Shown piece by piece: positions 1,440-18,806 of a stretch of 32,536 nt of DNA; within the stretch, counting starts at the first letter, position 1; every line of letters begins with the position of its first letter. The notes under the pieces are model-generated. The model was not told the DNA's origin. It ran no database searches and saw only the letters and a list, made by a program, of their open reading frames with translations. Made by a program: the position numbers and the translations under genes. The stretch comes from a virus: positions 1 to 32,536 of IMG/VR virus record IMGVR_UViG_3300017739_000050; one strand, given 5' to 3'.

Positions 1440-3806
1440 ATGAGTCAAGAAAAAATAAAAAGTGCAAAAGAATTAAAACAGATATTAAAAGACATCGCCG
1501 ATGATCAGGCGCGTATGTCAGATGCAGAACTGAATGCAATTAAAATTGCCGGTGATGCCAGAAGGGCTATGCTGGAAGAAACCCAAAGAGCCGGAGATGC
1601 ACTTATAGCACTTTCAGAAACCGAAGCAGCGGCCCTAAACCAACAGGGAGAGCTTCAGGAAGCTTTAATTCAACAGCTTAGAGAGCAGGCTGGTCTGACA
1701 GACGAACAGATAGATAGAATAGAAAAATCAAATGATCGCGCAGCAGAAATGGTTGAAATTGCCAAAGAAAGGAACAAACTACAACAAGAGCATAATGATT
1801 TAGCCAACGAATATGATTCAATGCTTGGCGGGATTGCTGCTAAAATCGGCATTGGAAACTCTGCTTTAAACAAGTCTGTTAATAAGTTTAAAGAGCAGGC
1901 AACTTTGCTAAAAACTAGTGAAAAGCATCAAAATGCATTTAAAGATTCTTTAGTCAAAACGTTCTCACCCGGTAACATATTGGGTAGTATCCTTGAAGGA
2001 ATAGTTGCGGCAACTGTAATGGCTGTTATACAAATTGACAAATTACAATCTTCATTTTCATCTCTTGCCGGAACTGGTGAAAAATTTGATTCTCAAATGG
2101 CATCAGTGGCTAGAAATAGTCTTGACTTCGGTATAAATGGCCAAATAGCAAGTGAGGCATTTACCGCACTTCAGCAGGGCCTTATAGGGTTTAATAACGA
2201 GTCTGATACTTCTATAGAGAACCTAACAATGCAAGTGGGACAACTCAAGCGTTTTGGCATTGAAGCAGAGCTTGCAGTCGGTATAATTAATGACCTAAAT
2301 GCTGTGCTTGGTGTAAACGCTGATGAAGCCGCTGAGATGACAAAACAAATAGCGATGTCAGCAACCGAACTAGGGATTGGGCCTAAAATGATGGCTGAGA
2401 GTTTTAGAAAAGCCTCATCAGTGTTAGCTGTGCATGGTAAGAAATCGATTGACGTATTCAAGGGCTTAGCTGTTGCTGCTCGTAACGCTGGTACATCTGT
2501 TGACACCTTGTTATCTATAGCCGGTAAGTTTGATACTTTTTCCGATGCTGCCGATGCAGCAGGCAAATTGAACTCAATATTAGGGTCGACAATGTCCGCA
2601 ACTGAAATGCTTATGATGACAGAAGATCAGAGGATAGAGACACTTATAAAGACCGTTAATGGACAGGGAGTGGCGTTCAGAGAAATGGACCGCTTTACTC
2701 AAAAAGCCATCGCTCAAGCTGCCGGTATCAGCGATATGGCAGAGGCAAATAGGATATTTGGAATGTCCTTGGGAGCTTATCGCCAACAAGCTGCTGATGC
2801 GAAAGCCGCTGAGATAAGACAAAACAAGTATAATGATGCAATAAGAGCCACTGTTCCAATACAGGAAAAACTAACTGAAGCTTTAGCAAAAATCGCAGCC
2901 AACTCAGAAACGGTAAATGGAGCAATCGATGCTCTAGTTGGTCTAATTGACCTATTTTCAGCTGGGTTGAGTGCGCTTGGTCCAAATGGGGTCACTGTTA
3001 TTGGTGTCCTAACTTTAATCGGCTTTGTTGGAACTAAACTTGTAACAATATTTAGCGGTTTGTCGACTATATTCACAGCACTCAGTGGCACAAGTAAAAT
3101 GGCAGGCAAATCTGTTCAGATGAGCGGAAAGCAAATGAATCAAGGCCTACAACAAACCGGGCAAGGTGCTGGTGCTGCTGCTGGTGGTTTAATAAAACTC
3201 GGTGTTGCTGCTCTACTAATAGGTGGTGGAATTGCAATCGCTGCTTTAGGTCTTGCTGAGTTGGCAAGATCCTTCCAAGGTCTCGGTGATGCGGCTCCGT
3301 ATGCAATGGGGGCAATTATCGGCTTCACTCTTTCTTTTGCCATACTGATGGGTGTTATGATGGCAATGGGTGCAGGACCTCAAGCAGCCGCAATTGGTAT
3401 TGCTGTGGGTTTGCTTCTCGGAATTGGAGTTGCTGCTCTAATGATTGGAGTTGCTGTTGAAAAAGCTGCTGGCGGCATAGAAAAAATGGCCAACTCTTTA
3501 GGAACAATGTTTGAAGCTATGACGGGTGCCGGTGATATAATTGGCGAGGTCAAAGAAGGAGTTGTGCAACTTGCTGATGCGATAATGGGTTTGCCAAGCG
3601 ATAAGAGAGTTGCTCTTCAAGCAACGTTACAAAATTTAGCGCTTATTTCATCAGGTCAAGCAGCGTCCTTGGCAGGTACAGCTGGTTTCTCAAACATTGT
3701 TAATGTCGGCGGAACTAGTGTTGATAACAATGTAAGTGTTATTGTTGAAATTGACGGAGAACAGTTTGACGGTAGAATCAGGAGAGTTAGCAATGAAGAG
3801 GAGTAA
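1440..3806 (+). CDS. Tail tape measure protein
   Basis: A 788-aa protein with the layout typical of tape measure proteins. Residues about 1-150 are a long, low-complexity helical and coiled-coil region rich in A, E, Q and R. The middle (about 180-470) has the tape-measure-like pattern of alternating A/G/S-rich helices. The C-terminal third contains several strongly hydrophobic glycine-rich segments (around 500-540, 580-610, 620-680), which in this class help pass the host membrane. It spans the tail tube lumen and sets tail length. At roughly 0.15 nm per residue it would imply a tail near 118 nm, an estimate only. The ribosome binding site is weak. It is the T4 gp29 counterpart by position, followed by a tube-initiator-like gene. 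Confidence 0.85.
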   Translation: MSQEKIKSAKELKQILKDIADDQARMSDAELNAIKIAGDARRAMLEETQRAGDALIALSETEAAALNQQGELQEALIQQLREQAGLTDEQIDRIEKSNDRAAEMVEIAKERNKLQQEHNDLANEYDSMLGGIAAKIGIGNSALNKSVNKFKEQATLLKTSEKHQNAFKDSLVKTFSPGNILGSILEGIVAATVMAVIQIDKLQSSFSSLAGTGEKFDSQMASVARNSLDFGINGQIASEAFTALQQGLIGFNNESDTSIENLTMQVGQLKRFGIEAELAVGIINDLNAVLGVNADEAAEMTKQIAMSATELGIGPKMMAESFRKASSVLAVHGKKSIDVFKGLAVAARNAGTSVDTLLSIAGKFDTFSDAADAAGKLNSILGSTMSATEMLMMTEDQRIETLIKTVNGQGVAFREMDRFTQKAIAQAAGISDMAEANRIFGMSLGAYRQQAADAKAAEIRQNKYNDAIRATVPIQEKLTEALAKIAANSETVNGAIDALVGLIDLFSAGLSALGPNGVTVIGVLTLIGFVGTKLVTIFSGLSTIFTALSGTSKMAGKSVQMSGKQMNQGLQQTGQGAGAAAGGLIKLGVAALLIGGGIAIAALGLAELARSFQGLGDAAPYAMGAIIGFTLSFAILMGVMMAMGAGPQAAAIGIAVGLLLGIGVAALMIGVAVEKAAGGIEKMANSLGTMFEAMTGAGDIIGEVKEGVVQLADAIMGLPSDKRVALQATLQNLALISSGQAASLAGTAGFSNIVNVGGTSVDNNVSVIVEIDGEQFDGRIRRVSNEEE

Positions 3807-12015: not shown

Positions 12016-12502
12016 CATTAATGATTCACGTTATAAAAAACATCTCTCTCCGGAGTTAAGCGACTGGTTGAAAGACAGCCGAATGGCAAGAATAGCTATG
12101 GCAGGAGCAATATCAGAACTTGAAGCTTATATATATATTAAATCACATCTTGGAGAAGATTGGTCTCTTGTTCATAACAAAGACGGTGGAGCTGACTTTA
12201 CTGTAACAAATATTCGCACGGACCAAGTTATTAAAATAGAGGCAAAAAGAACAGGAACTGGAAAGGTTGATTTCCAAAGAGCCATTAGAGAAAAACAGGA
12301 AGTTCGGTTATATGAATATGATTTTTGCGACGTGATATGCGTTGATATGTATGACGTCACAGGTATTGAGAACGACTATCGTTTTATAAACACATCATCA
12401 CTTCCAAATCATAATAAACTTACACACAAAGTTAAGCCTTCAATTATTGTTGAAGGGAATTCGACATCCCTAAAAGCCTCGATAAAAAAACTTCAAAAAT
12501 AA
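12008..12502 (+). CDS. PD-(D/E)XK nuclease-like protein
   Basis: A 164-aa protein from the ATG at 12008, chosen because AGGAGG lies 5 bases upstream. A longer in-frame start at 11900 lies inside the preceding gene. It shows the core of the PD-(D/E)XK nuclease fold: GGADFTV with D63, then after a short turn VIKIEAKR with E78 and K80, followed by a basic strand-helix (TGTGKVDFQRAIREK). Members cut DNA using metal bound by the D and E residues. Family (restriction-like, resolvase-like or repair nuclease) cannot be told. It overlaps the tubulin-like gene by 8 bases, so the two are co-translated. The stop is directly followed by promoter P1. Confidence 0.6.
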   Translation: MSNINDSRYKKHLSPELSDWLKDSRMARIAMAGAISELEAYIYIKSHLGEDWSLVHNKDGGADFTVTNIRTDQVIKIEAKRTGTGKVDFQRAIREKQEVRLYEYDFCDVICVDMYDVTGIENDYRFINTSSLPNHNKLTHKVKPSIIVEGNSTSLKASIKKLQK

Positions 12503-12503
12503 T

Positions 12504-12531
12504 TTGACAAACTTTTTCAACGTGTTATATT
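12504..12531 (+). promoter_or_regulatory. Promoter P1 (sigma70-like)
   Basis: TTGACA at 12504-12509, 16-base spacer, TG-extended -10 TATATT at 12526-12531. It begins one base after the stop of the nuclease-like gene and drives a 27-codon minigene. Confidence 0.75.
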
Positions 12532-12550
12532 ATAAAGACAAGGAGGGAAT

Positions 12551-12634
12551 ATGTCAAAACCAAGTTTAGGCTACTCCAATTACTATTGGAAGAAGGTCGA
12601 AAAGAAAGAGAAAGAAACTCAAAAAAATACTTGA
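12551..12634 (+). CDS. 27-aa minigene, unknown
   Basis: A short ORF behind its own promoter P1 and a perfect AGGAGG site 5 bases before the ATG. The product begins MSKPSLGYSNYYWKKVEKK and continues lysine- and glutamate-rich. Its TGA stop is part of the TTGACA of promoter P2. The good start signals argue that it is expressed. It has no recognisable family and may be a small takeover peptide, which is speculation. Confidence 0.5.
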   Translation: MSKPSLGYSNYYWKKVEKKEKETQKNT

Positions 12635-12659
12635 CAAACATAACAGAATATGTTATAAT
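12631..12659 (+). promoter_or_regulatory. Promoter P2 (sigma70-like)
   Basis: Consensus TTGACA at 12631-12636, 17-base spacer, TGT plus TATAAT at 12654-12659. It drives the two small membrane protein genes. Confidence 0.85.
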
Positions 12660-12685
12660 ATAGATATTCAAATGACGGAGGAAAA

Positions 12686-12868
12686 ATGAATAGCGAAAAT
12701 AAATTATCAAACTTTTGCTTTGCAGCTTCACTAGTATCAGTGGCTGTTTCAATAGCAACCTGGGTTACAGTCGGCGACGGTGATCCACAACACGCAGAAA
12801 GATTCGGCATCTTTATAGGACTATGGGCCCCAACTCTAATGGGACTTGCAAACTACTATAAGGAGTAA
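12686..12868 (+). CDS. Small membrane protein
   Basis: A 60-aa protein behind promoter P2 with a GGAGG site. It has a hydrophobic segment at about residues 10-30 (FCFAASLVSVAVSIATWVTV), a polar acidic turn with DGDPQHAERF, and a second hydrophobic segment (GIFIGLWAPTLMGLANYY), so two membrane passes are likely. Short proteins with an ERFGIF-GLWAPTLMGLA type ending occur as unknowns in aquatic phages and bacteria. Role unknown. Confidence 0.55.
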   Translation: MNSENKLSNFCFAASLVSVAVSIATWVTVGDGDPQHAERFGIFIGLWAPTLMGLANYYKE

Positions 12869-12871
12869 GAA

Positions 12872-13027
12872 ATGAATCTATTTGAGTTTTTATTCACTGT
12901 ATCCCTCGTGTTCTTTGTCAGTGGATTTATTACCTGGGTCAGACATATGGTCTATACCATTGTTTCTGAAACAAAAGAACAAGAAAATGAAAAAAATAAT
13001 TTGACAAGTTTAAACAACGTGTTATAA
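12872..13027 (+). CDS. Small single-pass membrane protein
   Basis: A 51-aa ORF starting 3 bases after the upstream stop, with an AGGAG site overlapping the end of that gene. The N-terminal 20 residues (FLFTVSLVFFVSGFITW) form a membrane segment, then a charged tail with KEQENEKNN. The last codons, stop included, run through promoter P3, and the TAA stop lies in its TATAAT box. Function unknown. Confidence 0.45.
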   Translation: MNLFEFLFTVSLVFFVSGFITWVRHMVYTIVSETKEQENEKNNLTSLNNVL

Positions 13028-13028
13028 T
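13001..13028 (+). promoter_or_regulatory. Promoter P3 (sigma70-like)
   Basis: TTGACA at 13001-13006, 16-base spacer, extended -10 TATAAT at 13023-13028. It lies inside the end of the preceding small ORF and 79 bases upstream of P4. Its leader has a short hairpin GGTTG/CAACC before P4. Confidence 0.8.
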
Positions 13029-13079
13029 ATAAACATCTTGGTTGTTAAAGTTCAACCGAAAAAAAACTTAAAAAAATAT

Positions 13080-13108
13080 TTGACAAACTTTCAAAAGTAT
13101 GTTATAAT
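13080..13108 (+). promoter_or_regulatory. Promoter P4 (sigma70-like)
   Basis: TTGACA at 13080-13085, 17-base spacer, TGT plus TATAAT at 13103-13108. With P3 it forms a tandem pair in front of the beta-barrel protein and the gp32 operon. Confidence 0.85.
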
Positions 13109-13139
13109 ATAAAAGACATTACAACAACAAGGAGGAAAT

Positions 13140-13594: not shown

Positions 13595-14350
13595 ATGGCT
13601 ATTAATTTAGAAGCAATGCGAGCAAAACTTAATGCTAGCAAAAACGGTGCGAAAGCATCTAGAAATAACACGAAGTGGCGACCAAAGGAAGGCGATCAGA
13701 CTATTCGTATTCTTCCCGCATCTGATGGAGACCCCTTCAAACAGTTTCACTTTCACTACAATGTAGGAAAGAATCCTGGTATCCTTTGCCCCAAAGCTAA
13801 CTTTGGAGAAGAATGTCCTATTTGCAACTTTGCATCTCAACTTTGGAGAGATGGAGTTCAAAACAATGACGATACAGCGAAACGAGAAGCAAAGAAATTG
13901 TTTGTTCGTAAGCGGTTTTTCTCTCCAATCTTAGTTCGTGGTGAAGAAGATGAAGGAGTGCGAGTCTGGTCTTATGGCAAGATGGCATATGAAACTCTTC
14001 TGGGATATGTTATTGACCCTGACTATGGCGATATTACAGACCCAGAGTCCGGAACCGATATAGTGCTAAACTATAACATCCCCGGAACACCCGGTTCTTT
14101 CCCTAAGACTATTCTTAAGCCCCGACGTCGACCATCTGTCCTGTGTGACGATGACGTTGCAGACTGCGAGACTCTTATCCAGTCCGTACCAGATATATCG
14201 GCGCTGTTTGAACGTAAAACCTCCGATGAAGTTCAGGCTTTGTTAGATGATTTTCTTTCCTCTGACTCCAACTCCGAAGGTAGGTCCTCTGAGACAAGAA
14301 AATACGGTACAGACGCAGTTGAAGATGCTTTCGATAAGCTGATGGCATAG
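13595..14350 (+). CDS. Single-stranded DNA-binding protein, gp32-like
   Basis: A 251-aa protein of the T4 gp32 type. It coats ssDNA in replication and recombination and coordinates helicase, recombinase and polymerase. The N terminus is basic (about 1-30) for cooperative self-interaction. A zinc site of gp32 layout is visible: H54, C65, C74 and C77, with CPICNF. The core has OB-fold-like strands and KRFFSPILV, and the C terminus is acidic (DDFLSSDS.. and VEDAFDKLM), as expected for partner binding. It is shorter than the 301-aa T4 protein. An AAGGAG site precedes the ATG, behind a long structured leader that probably regulates translation. The downstream genes to UvsX form the same operon. 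Confidence 0.88.
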   Translation: MAINLEAMRAKLNASKNGAKASRNNTKWRPKEGDQTIRILPASDGDPFKQFHFHYNVGKNPGILCPKANFGEECPICNFASQLWRDGVQNNDDTAKREAKKLFVRKRFFSPILVRGEEDEGVRVWSYGKMAYETLLGYVIDPDYGDITDPESGTDIVLNYNIPGTPGSFPKTILKPRRRPSVLCDDDVADCETLIQSVPDISALFERKTSDEVQALLDDFLSSDSNSEGRSSETRKYGTDAVEDAFDKLMA

Positions 14351-14587: not shown

Positions 14588-15139
14588 ATGGATGTTTTAA
14601 TAGTTTGTGGTTTTCTTTACTTGGGTTTTGTTTATGCTCAACTACTCGAATGGGTAATACATAAACATCTTTTACACAAACTAGGAAAGGATAAAAAGAA
14701 TAAATTTTTTGCTTATCACTTTTATGAACATCACAGGAACTCTAGAAACAATCTGTTTCAAGATGAGCCTTCTCTAAAAGAAACCCTTTCAATTATCTTT
14801 TTAGTTATTATACATTTACCTACCATAATTATCTCCTTTGGTTTATACGGCGGAATCGTCGTCGGTGCTCTCCGGTACTATTATGTTCACCGGAGGGCCC
14901 ACTTAGAACCAGAATGGTGCAAAGAACACTATCCTTGGCATTATGCCCACCATATGGCAACAACACAGGAAATGAACTGGGGAGTTACAACAGATAAGTT
15001 TGATAGGTTGTTTGGAACCCGACTTGTGTATGTCGGAACTGAAAAGGAAATAAAAGACACACAAAGAAGAATCAAAAGGTTCAACAAAAGGAGAAACAAT
15101 GAACAAGAACAACATATTGAGTATAAACGTCCCACTTGA
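14588..15139 (+). CDS. Fatty acid hydroxylase/sterol desaturase superfamily-like membrane enzyme
   Basis: A 183-aa membrane protein carrying the di-iron histidine clusters of the fatty acid hydroxylase superfamily: H25KHLLH30, H44FYEHH49, H101RRAH105 and H118YAHH122, followed by WGVTTDKFDRLFGTR, which matches the family ending. Members use di-iron and oxygen to hydroxylate or desaturate lipid chains. Two hydrophobic segments (about 3-22 and 65-98) fit an inner membrane enzyme. Its presence in a phage suggests editing of host lipid A or membrane lipids, or lipid-linked carotenoids. The substrate cannot be inferred. The final 41 bases overlap the next gene, and the basic C terminus (IKRFNKRRNN) is the part affected. 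Confidence 0.75.
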   Translation: MDVLIVCGFLYLGFVYAQLLEWVIHKHLLHKLGKDKKNKFFAYHFYEHHRNSRNNLFQDEPSLKETLSIIFLVIIHLPTIIISFGLYGGIVVGALRYYYVHRRAHLEPEWCKEHYPWHYAHHMATTQEMNWGVTTDKFDRLFGTRLVYVGTEKEIKDTQRRIKRFNKRRNNEQEQHIEYKRPT

Positions 15140-16661
15140 TTACAGCAACATACTAAGATCGCTAGATGCAACAAATGTAAAAGAGATGTCGGTTGTTAAA
15201 GAGATAATAAACAATTTCTTTGCAGCCGTAGACTCAGATATAAAAACAGGCGCCAAGCGTGATGTTTACAACTTTAAAATGGCAGTTGCCTTTGATAAAG
15301 ATAAGAATGCAAAGACCTTGTCGTATGCTGATGACGTTATAGGTATTGATCCAAATGAGTTAGGAGAATGTATAGCCTTCAGGCACCCAAAGGGTTCAAC
15401 TGGTTCATTTAAAAATGAACACAATAATGGTCTAAATTTGGCTATCGTGAAGACATCATCTGGATTGGAAAACGACTGGAAAATTGTCAACATACATAAG
15501 CACCAAAAAATGGTTGTTACGGAACTGGGTCTAGGGCTACACGAAATTGAAATAGAACAAACCGATGTGGCGTCTGGCTTGGAGCTTTGGTTTGAGAATC
15601 CGAAATTTGATCTGTTTTCACCAAATCTAAGGCACAACAGCAAGTTCTTTGGCTTTTTGAACAAATTGGGATCAGATTATGGCTTACTCATAAACCAGTA
15701 TGAAAAGAGAGGTATAACCATCAACATATACGTTGAATATACCTATCCTCCCGGCGGCACAGTTTCCAAGAGAGTCAGGCCAATTACGTGTCCAATAATT
15801 AATCCAGATAATCAGGAAAGCAGCTTCATGCTTGTCTTTCCGGTAGAGACTAACAACAAGAAAGGACTAGTCAAAGTAGGCTACAAAAAAGAACCAGAAG
15901 ATTCGTCTTATAAGGAAAATATATATGGCTCTGTTCATCCGCATAAAGTATCAAATACTGATTTCGGAGCAGACATCTATTTAGACGATATTAAAATTTG
16001 CGGTGGCTTCGATGGTATGGAGCTGCTAGGAATGTCTACTGGTTTCACAAGAGGTGGCAATCAAGGTCTACACAATCGTCTGTACATCGAGGTCCACTTG
16101 GAACCCACAGACTTTAGCACAACCAACACTAAGGACGGAATAAACACAGATACTGAAACTAGAAAATGGTTTGACAAAGTCAGAGAAATCCTGATAGGAA
16201 AGAAGCCAAATCCACAAACTGGCAAGGCCATAAACTATATGAGTAGATATTTTACAAAGCGCTCTTATGTTAAAGAAAAAGCCAAGCAAGATAAAATTTA
16301 CAGTCAACTAGCAGACATGTCAGAATACACAGGGTTTCACAACATCAGTCGCGAGAGACATACTGAAACTGGCGGTAGACTAGATATCAGTTATTTTGAT
16401 AGGAACAACAATCTCTATGTTCATGAAATAAAAAACGGTCCAGCAAAGAGAGAACATATCAATCAATGTATGGGTTATGCCATAGAATTATTAAGAGAAA
16501 GAGAGGGAAACGTTTATCTAACTCTAATATGTGATGACATTGATGAAAAAATGGTTATGCTGAAGGATCGTTATTTGGAACGTTTAAACGACCCAAGACT
16601 TAGTTTTAAGATAGAGAAATTAAGTGAAAGTAAAATGTTCAGAACACTATTCCAATACTAA
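15099..16661 (+). CDS. GHKL ATPase fused to PD-(D/E)XK nuclease-like domain
   Basis: A 520-aa protein with two distinct parts. The N terminus has GHKL ATPase signs: helix EIINNFFAAVD (E35, N39; N-box), strand YADDVIGID (D78-D79, G82; DxGxG-like), and EHNNGLNLAI (107-116; G2-like lid). This recalls Hsp90, MutL and prokaryotic MORC-like ATPases, in which ATP binding drives dimer closure. The C-terminal domain (about 400-520) has GGRLDIS (D429) and YVHEIK (E443, K445), then a helix with Q near 456, typical of PD-(D/E)XK nucleases. An AAAGGAG site precedes the ATG inside the previous gene. DNA handling or anti-host restriction are both possible. I do not know a named phage family for it. Confidence 0.55.
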   Translation: MNKNNILSINVPLDYSNILRSLDATNVKEMSVVKEIINNFFAAVDSDIKTGAKRDVYNFKMAVAFDKDKNAKTLSYADDVIGIDPNELGECIAFRHPKGSTGSFKNEHNNGLNLAIVKTSSGLENDWKIVNIHKHQKMVVTELGLGLHEIEIEQTDVASGLELWFENPKFDLFSPNLRHNSKFFGFLNKLGSDYGLLINQYEKRGITINIYVEYTYPPGGTVSKRVRPITCPIINPDNQESSFMLVFPVETNNKKGLVKVGYKKEPEDSSYKENIYGSVHPHKVSNTDFGADIYLDDIKICGGFDGMELLGMSTGFTRGGNQGLHNRLYIEVHLEPTDFSTTNTKDGINTDTETRKWFDKVREILIGKKPNPQTGKAINYMSRYFTKRSYVKEKAKQDKIYSQLADMSEYTGFHNISRERHTETGGRLDISYFDRNNNLYVHEIKNGPAKREHINQCMGYAIELLREREGNVYLTLICDDIDEKMVMLKDRYLERLNDPRLSFKIEKLSESKMFRTLFQY

Positions 16662-16676
16662 ATAAAAGGAGAACAA

Positions 16677-17768
16677 ATGGGACAAGTAATTCAAATGAAA
16701 GCAGGTAAAATTAATATTGATGAAATGAAAAAGAAATTAAACAAGAAAGCGGGACTTGAAGTCGCCCACTCTCTTGGCAACGGCAACGACCCTTCGTCTG
16801 TCGTCGATTGGATACCAACCGGTTCACGCTGGTTAGATTCTATCATATCTATTAAAGGAATGGCAGGAATACCAATCGGAAAAATAACGGAACTCGCTGG
16901 TCTTTCCGGTACAGGAAAGTCCTATATGGCAGCACAGATTGCAGCAAATGCACAGAAGAAAGGCATCTTTGTCGTCTACTTCGACGCAGAGTCTGCTGTT
17001 GACCCAGAGTTCCTCCAACAGTCAGGTTGCAACGTAGATGAGAACTTCTTGTACTACCAAGCTATCTCTGTTGAAAAAGTTCTCGAATCTATCGAGATGC
17101 TTATGGATAGTTACCCATCACAAAGGTTTCTGTTCATTTGGGACTCTATCGCTGCAACTTCTTCCGAGAAGGAACTAGAGTCTGACTTCAACCCTCAAAG
17201 TACGATGGCTGTTAAGCCGAGGATCTTTTCAAAGGCATTTCCAAAACTAACTATTCCAATGGCGAATAATCAGTGCGCTTTGCTTTTGATAAACCAGCTT
17301 AAAACCAACATCACTACTAACATTGCGGAAGCAATGACAACACCTTACATAGCACCGGGCGGTAAAGCGATTGAGTACTTTAGTTCTCTTCGTGTCTGGT
17401 TAACAGGGCGCAAGTCCAAAGCATCATACATCTATGATGACGTTGGTCGAGTTATTGGTTCTGAGGTGAAGGCAACTATTCAGAAGTCTCGCTTCGGTTC
17501 TTTAAAGGCAAACTGTACGTTTAAGATTATGTGGGGTGAGGGCGTTGGTATTCAAGATGAGGAATCTTGGCTTACTGCCATCAAGCTTTCTGGGACTGAC
17601 AAGTTAAAACAGGCAGGCGCGTGGTACACTATAACTGGAACAGACGGTAAAGAATATAAGTTTCAAGCAACTAAGTGGCTTGAGATGTTGAAGAAAAAAG
17701 AATTTAGAGAAGCGGTTCTCGCAATCATGGATGAAGCTGTGGTCAAGGGAATCAAGTTAGAAGATTAG
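16677..17768 (+). CDS. uvsX: UvsX/RecA-like recombinase
   Basis: A 363-aa RecA-family strand-exchange protein, the phage UvsX type. Walker A GLSGTGKS at 75-82, a Walker B-like strand LFIWDSIAAT near 150, and LLINQLKTNI near 205 with the loop that contacts DNA. It forms filaments on ssDNA coated by gp32 and drives recombination-dependent replication and repair. A short N-terminal extension with KAGKINIDEMKKKLNKKAGLE precedes the core. An AAGGAG site lies 6 bases before the ATG. It is the last gene of the gp32 operon and ends 22 bases before a strong terminator. Confidence 0.9.
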   Translation: MGQVIQMKAGKINIDEMKKKLNKKAGLEVAHSLGNGNDPSSVVDWIPTGSRWLDSIISIKGMAGIPIGKITELAGLSGTGKSYMAAQIAANAQKKGIFVVYFDAESAVDPEFLQQSGCNVDENFLYYQAISVEKVLESIEMLMDSYPSQRFLFIWDSIAATSSEKELESDFNPQSTMAVKPRIFSKAFPKLTIPMANNQCALLLINQLKTNITTNIAEAMTTPYIAPGGKAIEYFSSLRVWLTGRKSKASYIYDDVGRVIGSEVKATIQKSRFGSLKANCTFKIMWGEGVGIQDEESWLTAIKLSGTDKLKQAGAWYTITGTDGKEYKFQATKWLEMLKKKEFREAVLAIMDEAVVKGIKLED

Positions 17769-17790: not shown

Positions 17791-17817
17791 CCCCGACCTT
17801 TGTCGGGGTTTTTTTTT
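17791..17817 (+). terminator. Strong intrinsic terminator after uvsX
   Basis: Stem CCCCGAC (17791-17797) and GTCGGGG (17802-17808), CTTT loop, then nine T residues. It closes the gp32-uvsX operon just before promoter P5. Confidence 0.92.
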
Positions 17818-17826
17818 CTTTTTTTC

Positions 17827-17854
17827 TTGACAAAATACGGTATCGTGTTATAAT
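17827..17854 (+). promoter_or_regulatory. Promoter P5 (sigma70-like)
   Basis: TTGACA at 17827-17832, 16-base spacer, extended -10 TATAAT at 17849-17854. It drives the UV endonuclease and exonuclease genes immediately after the terminator. Confidence 0.85.
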
Positions 17855-17873: not shown

Positions 17874-18806
17874 ATGACCAATTACAATTTGGGTTATGCT
17901 TGTATTAACCATGGCTTTTCAGAAAGACCAAAAAACAAGCGCATTACAACAAACAGAAGTATGATTAAGAGAACTTTCAAAGAGAAGGGCTCTGCATACG
18001 CTTCAGAACTTGCACTACTGAACTGCAAGGACTTACTTGAGATCCTTAAGTGGAACGACCAAAATGACATTCGTTTCTTTCGATTGTCATCTAACCTATT
18101 CCCTTGGGCATCTGAATATGAACTATCGGACCTACCAGACTTTGATGCTATTTCAGAAGCATTGTATGAGGCTGGTTTGTTCGCATCAGAACGTAACATT
18201 CGTATTACCAGTCATCCTGGGCCTTTTAACAAATTGACTAGTCCAAAAGAGTCTGTGATACTAAATACTATCCGTGATCTAGAGATTCATGGCGAGATCT
18301 TTGATCTTATGTTTCTTGAACGATCACCATTTGCTAAAATCAATATACACGTAGGAGCAGCATATGATGACAAATCTATGGCCATTGGTAACTTTTGCAA
18401 GAATTTTCAAAGGTTATCGGAAGCCGTCAAAACAAGACTAACTGTCGAGAATGATGACAAACCGTCACTATATACAACGAGGGAACTATATGATAATATC
18501 CATAAAAACATTGGCATTCCTGTGGTATTTGACTATCATCACCACGATCTTCATGATGGAGGTCAAACCGAGAAAGAAGCTCTTGACATGGCTCTTTCTA
18601 CTTGGCCTGTGGATATTCGTCCTGTTGTCCACTACTCAGAATCTAGATCAGATGAACATAATGATCCCAAGATCAAACCACAAGCCCACTCAGACTCCTA
18701 CGTCCGACCAGTAAATACTTACGGACATGAAATGGACATTATGCTTGAGGCAAAGCACAAGGAATTGGCTCTCTTCAAGATGCGAGAACTCATGGAGGCA
18801 GTATGA
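17874..18806 (+). CDS. UV damage endonuclease (UvsE/UVDE family)
   Basis: A 310-aa protein of the UV damage endonuclease family, a TIM-barrel metalloenzyme that nicks DNA 5' of cyclobutane dimers and 6-4 photoproducts. It starts NLGYACINHGFS, as in the family, and shows FRLSSNLFPW, RITSHPGPF, INIHVGAAY, LTVENDD and VVFDYHHHDLH, the metal-binding histidine, glutamate and aspartate clusters in the usual order, then VVHYSESR. A GGAGG site follows promoter P5. It overlaps the exonuclease gene by 4 bases. Light-exposed phages often carry such repair enzymes. T4 uses an unrelated enzyme, DenV. Confidence 0.9.
   Translation: MTNYNLGYACINHGFSERPKNKRITTNRSMIKRTFKEKGSAYASELALLNCKDLLEILKWNDQNDIRFFRLSSNLFPWASEYELSDLPDFDAISEALYEAGLFASERNIRITSHPGPFNKLTSPKESVILNTIRDLEIHGEIFDLMFLERSPFAKINIHVGAAYDDKSMAIGNFCKNFQRLSEAVKTRLTVENDDKPSLYTTRELYDNIHKNIGIPVVFDYHHHDLHDGGQTEKEALDMALSTWPVDIRPVVHYSESRSDEHNDPKIKPQAHSDSYVRPVNTYGHEMDIMLEAKHKELALFKMRELMEAV

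Follow-up and report, generated by a model that had tools for sequence, protein, structure and literature searches.

A phage gene between gp32 and uvsX predicted to join a diverged GHKL-S5 ATPase to a NucS-like nuclease

A reading frame of 520 codons (ORF520) lies between the genes for a gp32-like single-stranded DNA-binding protein and a UvsX-type recombinase in a viral DNA of 32,536 nucleotides (IMG/VR record IMGVR_UViG_3300017739_000050), the whole of which is referred to here as the window. The initial annotation placed the frame correctly beside these two genes and read it as a GHKL ATPase joined to a PD-(D/E)XK nuclease-like domain, a layout that it did not know from phages. Two questions follow: whether both folds are present on one chain, and what a phage might gain from such a protein within its recombination genes.

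ORF520 is a real open reading frame, with an ATG start codon and a GGAGA element closely upstream, and the observation of both folds on one chain is confirmed by profiles, alignment and AF2 fold matches. The division into a GHKL-S5 module (about residues 12–350) and, C-terminal to it, a PD-(D/E)XK nuclease domain (residues 411–520) holds in both sequence comparisons and predicted models. The residues named initially (E35/N39, D78-D79-V-I-G82, G111-L-N113 and D429/E443/K445) are all found where they had been placed. The GC content of the gene is 37.6%, and its codon divergence is inside the range of other phage genes; codon usage gives no sign of a recent foreign origin. The features of ORF520 and its locus are collected in Table 1.

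Table 1. Positions of ORF520, its predicted domains and motifs, and the neighbouring features in the window
Feature	Position	Strand	Basis or remark
Two perfect-consensus sigma-70-type promoters, 5' of gp32-FAH-ORF520-uvsX	13001..13108	+	
gp32-like ssDNA-binding protein	13595..14350	+	Pfam gp32, E 2.7e-15
Fatty-acid-hydroxylase-like (FAH) gene; 3' end overlaps ORF520 start	14588..15139	+	Pfam FA_hydroxylase, E 3e-10
Ribosome-binding site GGAGA of ORF520; left insertion junction adjoins	15090..15094	+	
ORF520, predicted GHKL-S5 ATPase and NucS-like PD-(D/E)XK nuclease, 520 aa	15099..16661	+	ORF list, Pfam, hhalign, alignment, AF2, fold search
Predicted GHKL (Bergerat-type) ATP-binding domain, ~residues 12–175	15132..15623	+	hhalign, MAFFT alignment, AF2 model, fold search
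Motif I (N-box) SVVKEIINNFFAAVDSDI, E35 and N39	15189..15242	+	Aligned with N-boxes of AEFVDNSIDA type in 39 phage GHKL proteins
Motif II LSYADDVIGIDPNELGECI; D78 and G82 retained, V80 at first Gly position	15318..15374	+	Alignment
Motif III / ATP lid TGSFKNEHNNGLNLAIV; G102, G111, N113, A115; 6-residue insertion	15399..15449	+	Alignment
Predicted S5/transducer domain, ~residues 205–350; candidate catalytic lysine K345 (DFSTTNTKDGI)	15711..16148	+	Alignment; fold matches
Predicted NucS/EndoMS-like PD-(D/E)XK nuclease domain, residues 411–520; D429, E443, K445	16329..16658	+	Profiles, AF2, folds, phmmer
Right junction ACTAAATAAAAGGAGAACAAATG, identical to the L006 empty site	16657..16679	+	Gives ORF520 stop, uvsX RBS and start
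UvsX/RecA-like recombinase	16677..17768	+	PHROG UvsX-like, E 2e-59
Intrinsic terminator 3' of uvsX	17791..17808	+	

Nuclease and ATPase halves

The assignment of the C-terminal domain as a nuclease is secure as far as profiles and models can carry it, and the signal is far beyond chance. On whole ORF520, the Pfam NucS_C profile matches residues 411–500 (E 4.6e-4, 20.6 bits), and on residues 390–520 alone it passes its cut-off of 24 bits (E 3.2e-5, 24.4 bits). The NCBIfam NucS model matches as well (E 6e-5, 22.2 bits), restricted to residues 411–484; its whole-protein cut-off as an equivalog is 216 bits, and ORF520 is accordingly rejected as a NucS protein, its N-terminus differing from that of NucS. 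There is also a short match to PADLOC PDC-S11 (residues 416–462, E 9e-4). In a weak phmmer pairing (E 0.16) with NucS of P. abyssi (PDB 2vld), D429, E443 and K445 sit on the D, E and K of NucS, and Q456 and Y460, beyond the catalytic lysine, are also common to the two. AF2 run without an alignment modelled about residues 430–510 (pLDDT about 70–90). The clearest Foldseek match of this single-sequence model is NucS/EndoMS, and in VIA-align 2vld (Z 9.2, rmsd 3.7, 105 aligned) and EndoMS (Z 9.1; 5gke/5gkj) are followed by the nickase Nt.BspD6I (Z 8.2). NucS and ORF520 thus appear to have a common nuclease fold, whereas NucS has its own N-terminal domain and no ATPase fusion. The initial description of this region was right about the fold and missed its specific likeness to NucS/EndoMS.

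For the N-terminal half, the GHKL assignment is convincing through a convergence of sequence and model evidence in which no single score decides. On residues 1–174, the best Pfam match is HATPase_c (E 0.03, 15.1 bits against a cut-off of 26.4), and HATPase_c_3 is third of three (E 0.14, 12.6 bits against a cut-off of 25). Both are correctly placed on ORF520, though sub-threshold, and neither the Pfam nor the PHROG profile library gives a GHKL call above threshold. Scores below the cut-off are expected of a very diverged member of the family and so do not speak against membership. hhalign of the single ORF520 sequence against a 48-sequence GHKL profile gave a modestly significant p 0.0014 over residues 7–94, with both the N-box and motif II aligned on their counterparts; the GHKL comparison set was drawn from phage contigs, three phage records and plasmids. 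In controls, 1 of 200 shuffles scored above ORF520, which ranked third among 285 real ORFs (itself counted in), below a GHKL protein that had not been filtered out and one short C-terminal match.

When ORF520 and 39 phage GHKL proteins were aligned in MAFFT without guidance, five motifs came into register, the last being the S5 lysine. E35 and N39 align with the E/D and N of motif I; the columns of N39, A43, D78, G82, G102, G111 and G290 show no variation, and that of K345 almost none (FSTTNTKDGI in ORF520, FELNNTKTSI in L068). ORF520 departs from the family in having V80 at the first glycine of motif II (DxGxG) and six extra residues inserted into the lid. Because of these two departures, ATPase activity is not certain, and the half as a whole looks very diverged.

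Single-sequence AF2 of whole ORF520 left the N-terminus unmodelled, without a GHKL fold. When the GHKL alignment was supplied, pLDDT reached about 80–87 over much of residues 31–80 (whole model: mean pLDDT 62.9, pTM 0.54). The best 50 Foldseek matches listed for this model are all GyrB/ParE-type topoisomerases, SMCHD1, Hsp90/TRAP1 or Topo VI, and VIA-align pairs it with SMCHD1 (Z 13.2, rmsd 4.9, 281 aligned), MORC3 (Z 12.7) and GyrB (Z 12.6), in matches that span residues 12–419. Such a model is biased by its GHKL input and supports the sequence evidence without being independent of it. The profile searches and structure models proposed initially gave results of unequal strength: NucS_C is above cut-off on the isolated domain and HATPase_c is weak and correctly placed, while the nuclease fold comes from a single sequence and the GHKL-S5 fold from an alignment-guided model.

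An accessory gene in the gp32–uvsX region

The consensus promoters at 13001–13108 and the terminator at 17791–17808 suggest that gp32, FAH, ORF520 and uvsX form one transcription unit. A near-repeat array at 12481–13112, TTGACAAACTTTT...TATAATATAAA, contains several perfect or near-perfect sigma-70-type promoters in tandem, 5' of this unit, and one more perfect sigma-70-type promoter lies beyond the uvsX terminator (17827–17854). It is followed by a UvdE-type UV endonuclease gene of the phage replication region (17874–18806), which is also found 3' of uvsX in several relatives. Most near relatives retain the FAH-like gene between gp32 and uvsX.

Scanning with UvsX brought up 29 further viral contigs that are related (UvsX 62–99%), and none of the 29 carries ORF520 at this locus. 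In 12 of them (L006, L007, L008, L009, L011, L012, L013, L014, L085, L093, L094 and L095) FAH runs directly into uvsX. The empty junction of L006, whose UvsX is 99% identical, reads ...AAAAGACTAAATAAAAGGAGAACAAATG-uvsX, and in the window the last 23 bases at the 3' side of ORF520 are the same as this junction, with the ORF520 stop codon within them. The empty junction and the shared bases indicate that what was gained, or lost, at a ribosome-binding site was the bare reading frame of ORF520. Among 17 related records searched whole, one twin contig alone has ORF520; from the other 16 it is absent elsewhere in the record as well. The twin comes from another sample, is 99.9% identical over 15 kb and has zero differences within ORF520. 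It is the only other carrier in the collections searched: 50,697 phage records, 72,556 plasmids, IMG/VR and GTDB yielded no further homologue to tblastn (phages and plasmids), to 8-mer scans run over viral and genome contigs, to degenerate motif scans (whose hand-made variant rows served as a pattern only) or to an S5-motif DNA pattern, the pattern scans relying on short conserved peptides that distant homologues may escape. Two other matches to the S5-motif pattern lay in unrelated frames and were rejected.

Relatives carry other genes in and near the gp32-FAH-uvsX-uvdE stretch. In L012 and L014 this is an unrelated GHKL protein of 546 residues with a nuclease-like tail motif (LDL..HEFK); its GHKL half is recognised by Pfam HATPase_c_3 (L014:3573-5213, E 8e-18), and its nuclease is a motif only. 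It has the same domain order as ORF520 at the same gp32–uvsX locus, but its gene stands before the FAH gene and that of ORF520 after it. Pairwise comparison detects neither sequence similarity nor direct homology between the two proteins, so that two very different GHKL proteins appear to have entered one locus. An MvaI/BcnI-family restriction enzyme lies beside a complete N6/N4 DNA methylase in L008 (1984-3410), which has the look of an entire type II restriction-modification pair within a phage recombination region; in L011 (4035-4986) such an enzyme stands before a methylase-like frame of which the contig end leaves only the start. GmrSD_N is found in the stretch in L085, a 418-residue protein in L088 is GmrSD-like by eye and has no Pfam match, PDDEXK_5 nucleases occur near the stretch in L092 and L098, and GIY-YIG genes occupy the locus in L086 and L102. 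Taken together, these comparisons show that ORF520, at the level of sequence, is accessory and that its locus is a hotspot for DNA-targeting cargo.

At ORF520's own junction, between FAH and uvsX, L010 has a 191-aa ORF (2528-3103) with an IELK that may be of a PD-(D/E)XK nuclease, without Pfam support. Adenylosuccinate synthetase-like proteins (332 aa) are encoded 3' of uvsX in several relatives (L007:3945-4343, L008:3410-4405, L010:4310-5305 and L086:8210-9205) and could possibly be PurZ, which would mean 2-aminoadenine DNA; in the window such a gene is absent 3' of uvsX. None of the window proteins that were scanned could be recognised as the product of a protective modification gene.

Known proteins of similar layout

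ORF520 appears to be a phage-borne, NucS-type variant of an architecture already known in bacteria. The paraMORC3 proteins combine GHKL, S5 and a C-terminal restriction-fold nuclease; some members are stand-alone, without restriction-modification neighbours, and their nucleases give RecB-like matches with E-D-ExK motifs (Iyer, Abhiman and Aravind 2008, PMC2292703). ORF520 has this layout when architectures rather than sequences are compared, but it is very diverged, phage-borne and NucS-like in its nuclease. The link drawn initially with MORC-like restriction ATPases is right, and membership of the MORC family itself fails: when the S5 motif GhXhhpXXRhl is aligned to G290-ADIYLDDIKI, the arginine is missing.

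VcSduA, encoded on VSP-II of Vibrio cholerae, is a Shedu type I-D anti-phage protein in which ATPase and nuclease residues are both required, as mutants of each show (PMC12137116). As in ORF520, a single gene encodes a chain that runs from a GHKL ATPase at the N-terminus through a clamp-like middle domain to a PD-(D/E)XK nuclease at the C-terminus. This likeness is one of layout; the nuclease of ORF520 matches NucS_C and not SduA_C. With the SduA_C profile (DUF4263, PF14082), nothing matched in the window or on the isolated nuclease domain when E was allowed up to 10, or on ORF520 when it was allowed up to 1; Shedu membership fails on this signature. SduA chains are absent among the fold matches listed, which excludes nothing. 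VcSduA is an anti-phage protein from a bacterial island, whereas ORF520 comes from a phage's own recombination operon and its activity is predicted only. The initial annotation had overlooked these bacterial precedents for the layout, paraMORC3 and VcSduA.

Among phage proteins, T4 rIIA has an N-terminal GHKL domain, and its orthologues, likewise GHKL proteins, vary strongly in their C-terminal domains and are discussed as counter-defence factors; rIIA is not described with a nuclease domain (PMC7824862). Its genome context is unlike that of ORF520, the N-terminal half of which has no PHROG match at E up to 1.

Predicted function and its alternatives

We favour, with confidence a little better than even, the reading that ORF520 encodes a stand-alone DNA nuclease under the control of ATP and that one phage population carries it as optional cargo. 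In known GHKL-S5 ATPases, ATP drives dimerisation and closure of a clamp, and a basic residue of S5 aids hydrolysis (PMC2292703). By analogy with these families, the GHKL domains of two ORF520 subunits would close on ATP to form a clamp round DNA, with the S5 lysine K345 completing the ATPase active site, and closure or hydrolysis would bring the paired nuclease domains together to cut the DNA. The target may be DNA that competes during infection, such as that of a rival phage, of a plasmid or of the host chromosome; this is suggested by the cargo of the locus and by the example of VcSduA. ATPase, nuclease and foreign target are each predicted components of this clamp-and-cut scheme. An ATP-gated nuclease directed against competing DNA is the most likely role by analogy, with a role in repair as a less likely alternative. 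The initial annotation had offered a repair clamp and an anti-host or anti-rival restriction machine side by side; the accessory status of the gene in a hotspot of DNA-targeting cargo favours the latter. Several observations weigh against this reading: the homing-type GIY-YIG genes at the same locus mean that its cargo is not purely one of conflict, and an operon with gp32 and uvsX would suit recombination or repair. The lack of a recognised protective modification gene, the departures in motif II and the lid, and the missing SduA_C signature count on the same side. A more ambitious proposal, which we regard as speculative and rather unlikely, is that a MutL-like ATP clamp fused to an EndoMS-type nuclease makes ORF520 a single-protein counterpart of a restriction or mismatch-repair machine and an exchangeable phage-versus-phage weapon, with at least two GHKL-nuclease proteins separately acquired at one locus in one lineage.

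The alternative with the strongest claim, though still an unlikely one, is a repair or recombination clamp in which a MutL-like ATPase works with gp32 and UvsX and the EndoMS-like domain nicks phage DNA at mismatches or branches. Each half resembles a mismatch-repair protein (the GHKL-S5 module MutL, the nuclease most closely EndoMS/NucS), and ORF520 shares its predicted transcription unit with gp32 and uvsX. The recombination machinery nevertheless does not need ORF520, given that all 29 relatives found through UvsX are without it; in addition, the N-terminus is not of NucS type, the NCBIfam match being limited to residues 411–484, and the neighbouring cargo of relatives is restriction-like or homing-like. 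The clean insertion at an intergenic ribosome-binding site, the intact empty site in sister phages and the GIY-YIG genes that occupy nearby sites in relatives would all fit a selfish, free-standing homing-type endonuclease that cuts the empty FAH–uvsX junction to spread among related phages. We nonetheless hold this to be the most improbable of the readings, ORF520 having turned up in a single population whereas homing genes tend to spread; known homing nucleases, moreover, are small, of GIY-YIG, HNH, LAGLIDADG or Vsr-like type, and have no GHKL clamp.

The N-terminus might also be no active GHKL ATPase, being decayed or unrelated, which would leave a nuclease with an unknown partner domain. 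The absence of any Pfam or PHROG match over the cut-off, the valine at a conserved glycine and the appearance of the fold only in the model that was given a GHKL alignment lean that way. We consider this improbable in view of five motifs in register, the S5 lysine included, an hhalign p of about 0.001, and HATPase_c ranking first, and HATPase_c_3 third, among the Pfam models that match the isolated domain. Marginally less remote, and still distinctly doubtful, is a counter-defence or host-takeover protein akin to T4 rIIA, with the nuclease degrading host or defence-element DNA. The variable C-termini of the rIIA orthologues and their proposed counter-defence role (PMC7824862) would accommodate it, as would the consensus host-type promoters of the ORF520 unit; on the other side, the GHKL half has no PHROG match at E up to 1 and nothing in the context is rII-specific. 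If host DNA is attacked, this reading overlaps with the ATP-controlled nuclease that we prefer.

GHKL-nuclease fusions are known bacterial anti-phage enzymes, and the swappable ORF520, together with the restriction enzymes of sister phages and the second GHKL protein at the locus, suggests that phages carry such machines too. ORF520 would offer a small model for an ATP clamp that gates a NucS-type nuclease, and for phage–phage competition. Its GHKL call, never above threshold, indicates that profile libraries can miss such proteins. The initial annotation had itself overlooked other phage GHKL proteins, namely T4 rIIA (PMC7824862) and about 45 HATPase_c_3-type IMG/VR loci. Among these, 43 viral contigs (L040–L082, with L038/L039 in addition) encode MORC/paraMORC-like proteins of HATPase_c_3 type, little-described GHKL ATPases of phages or prophages.
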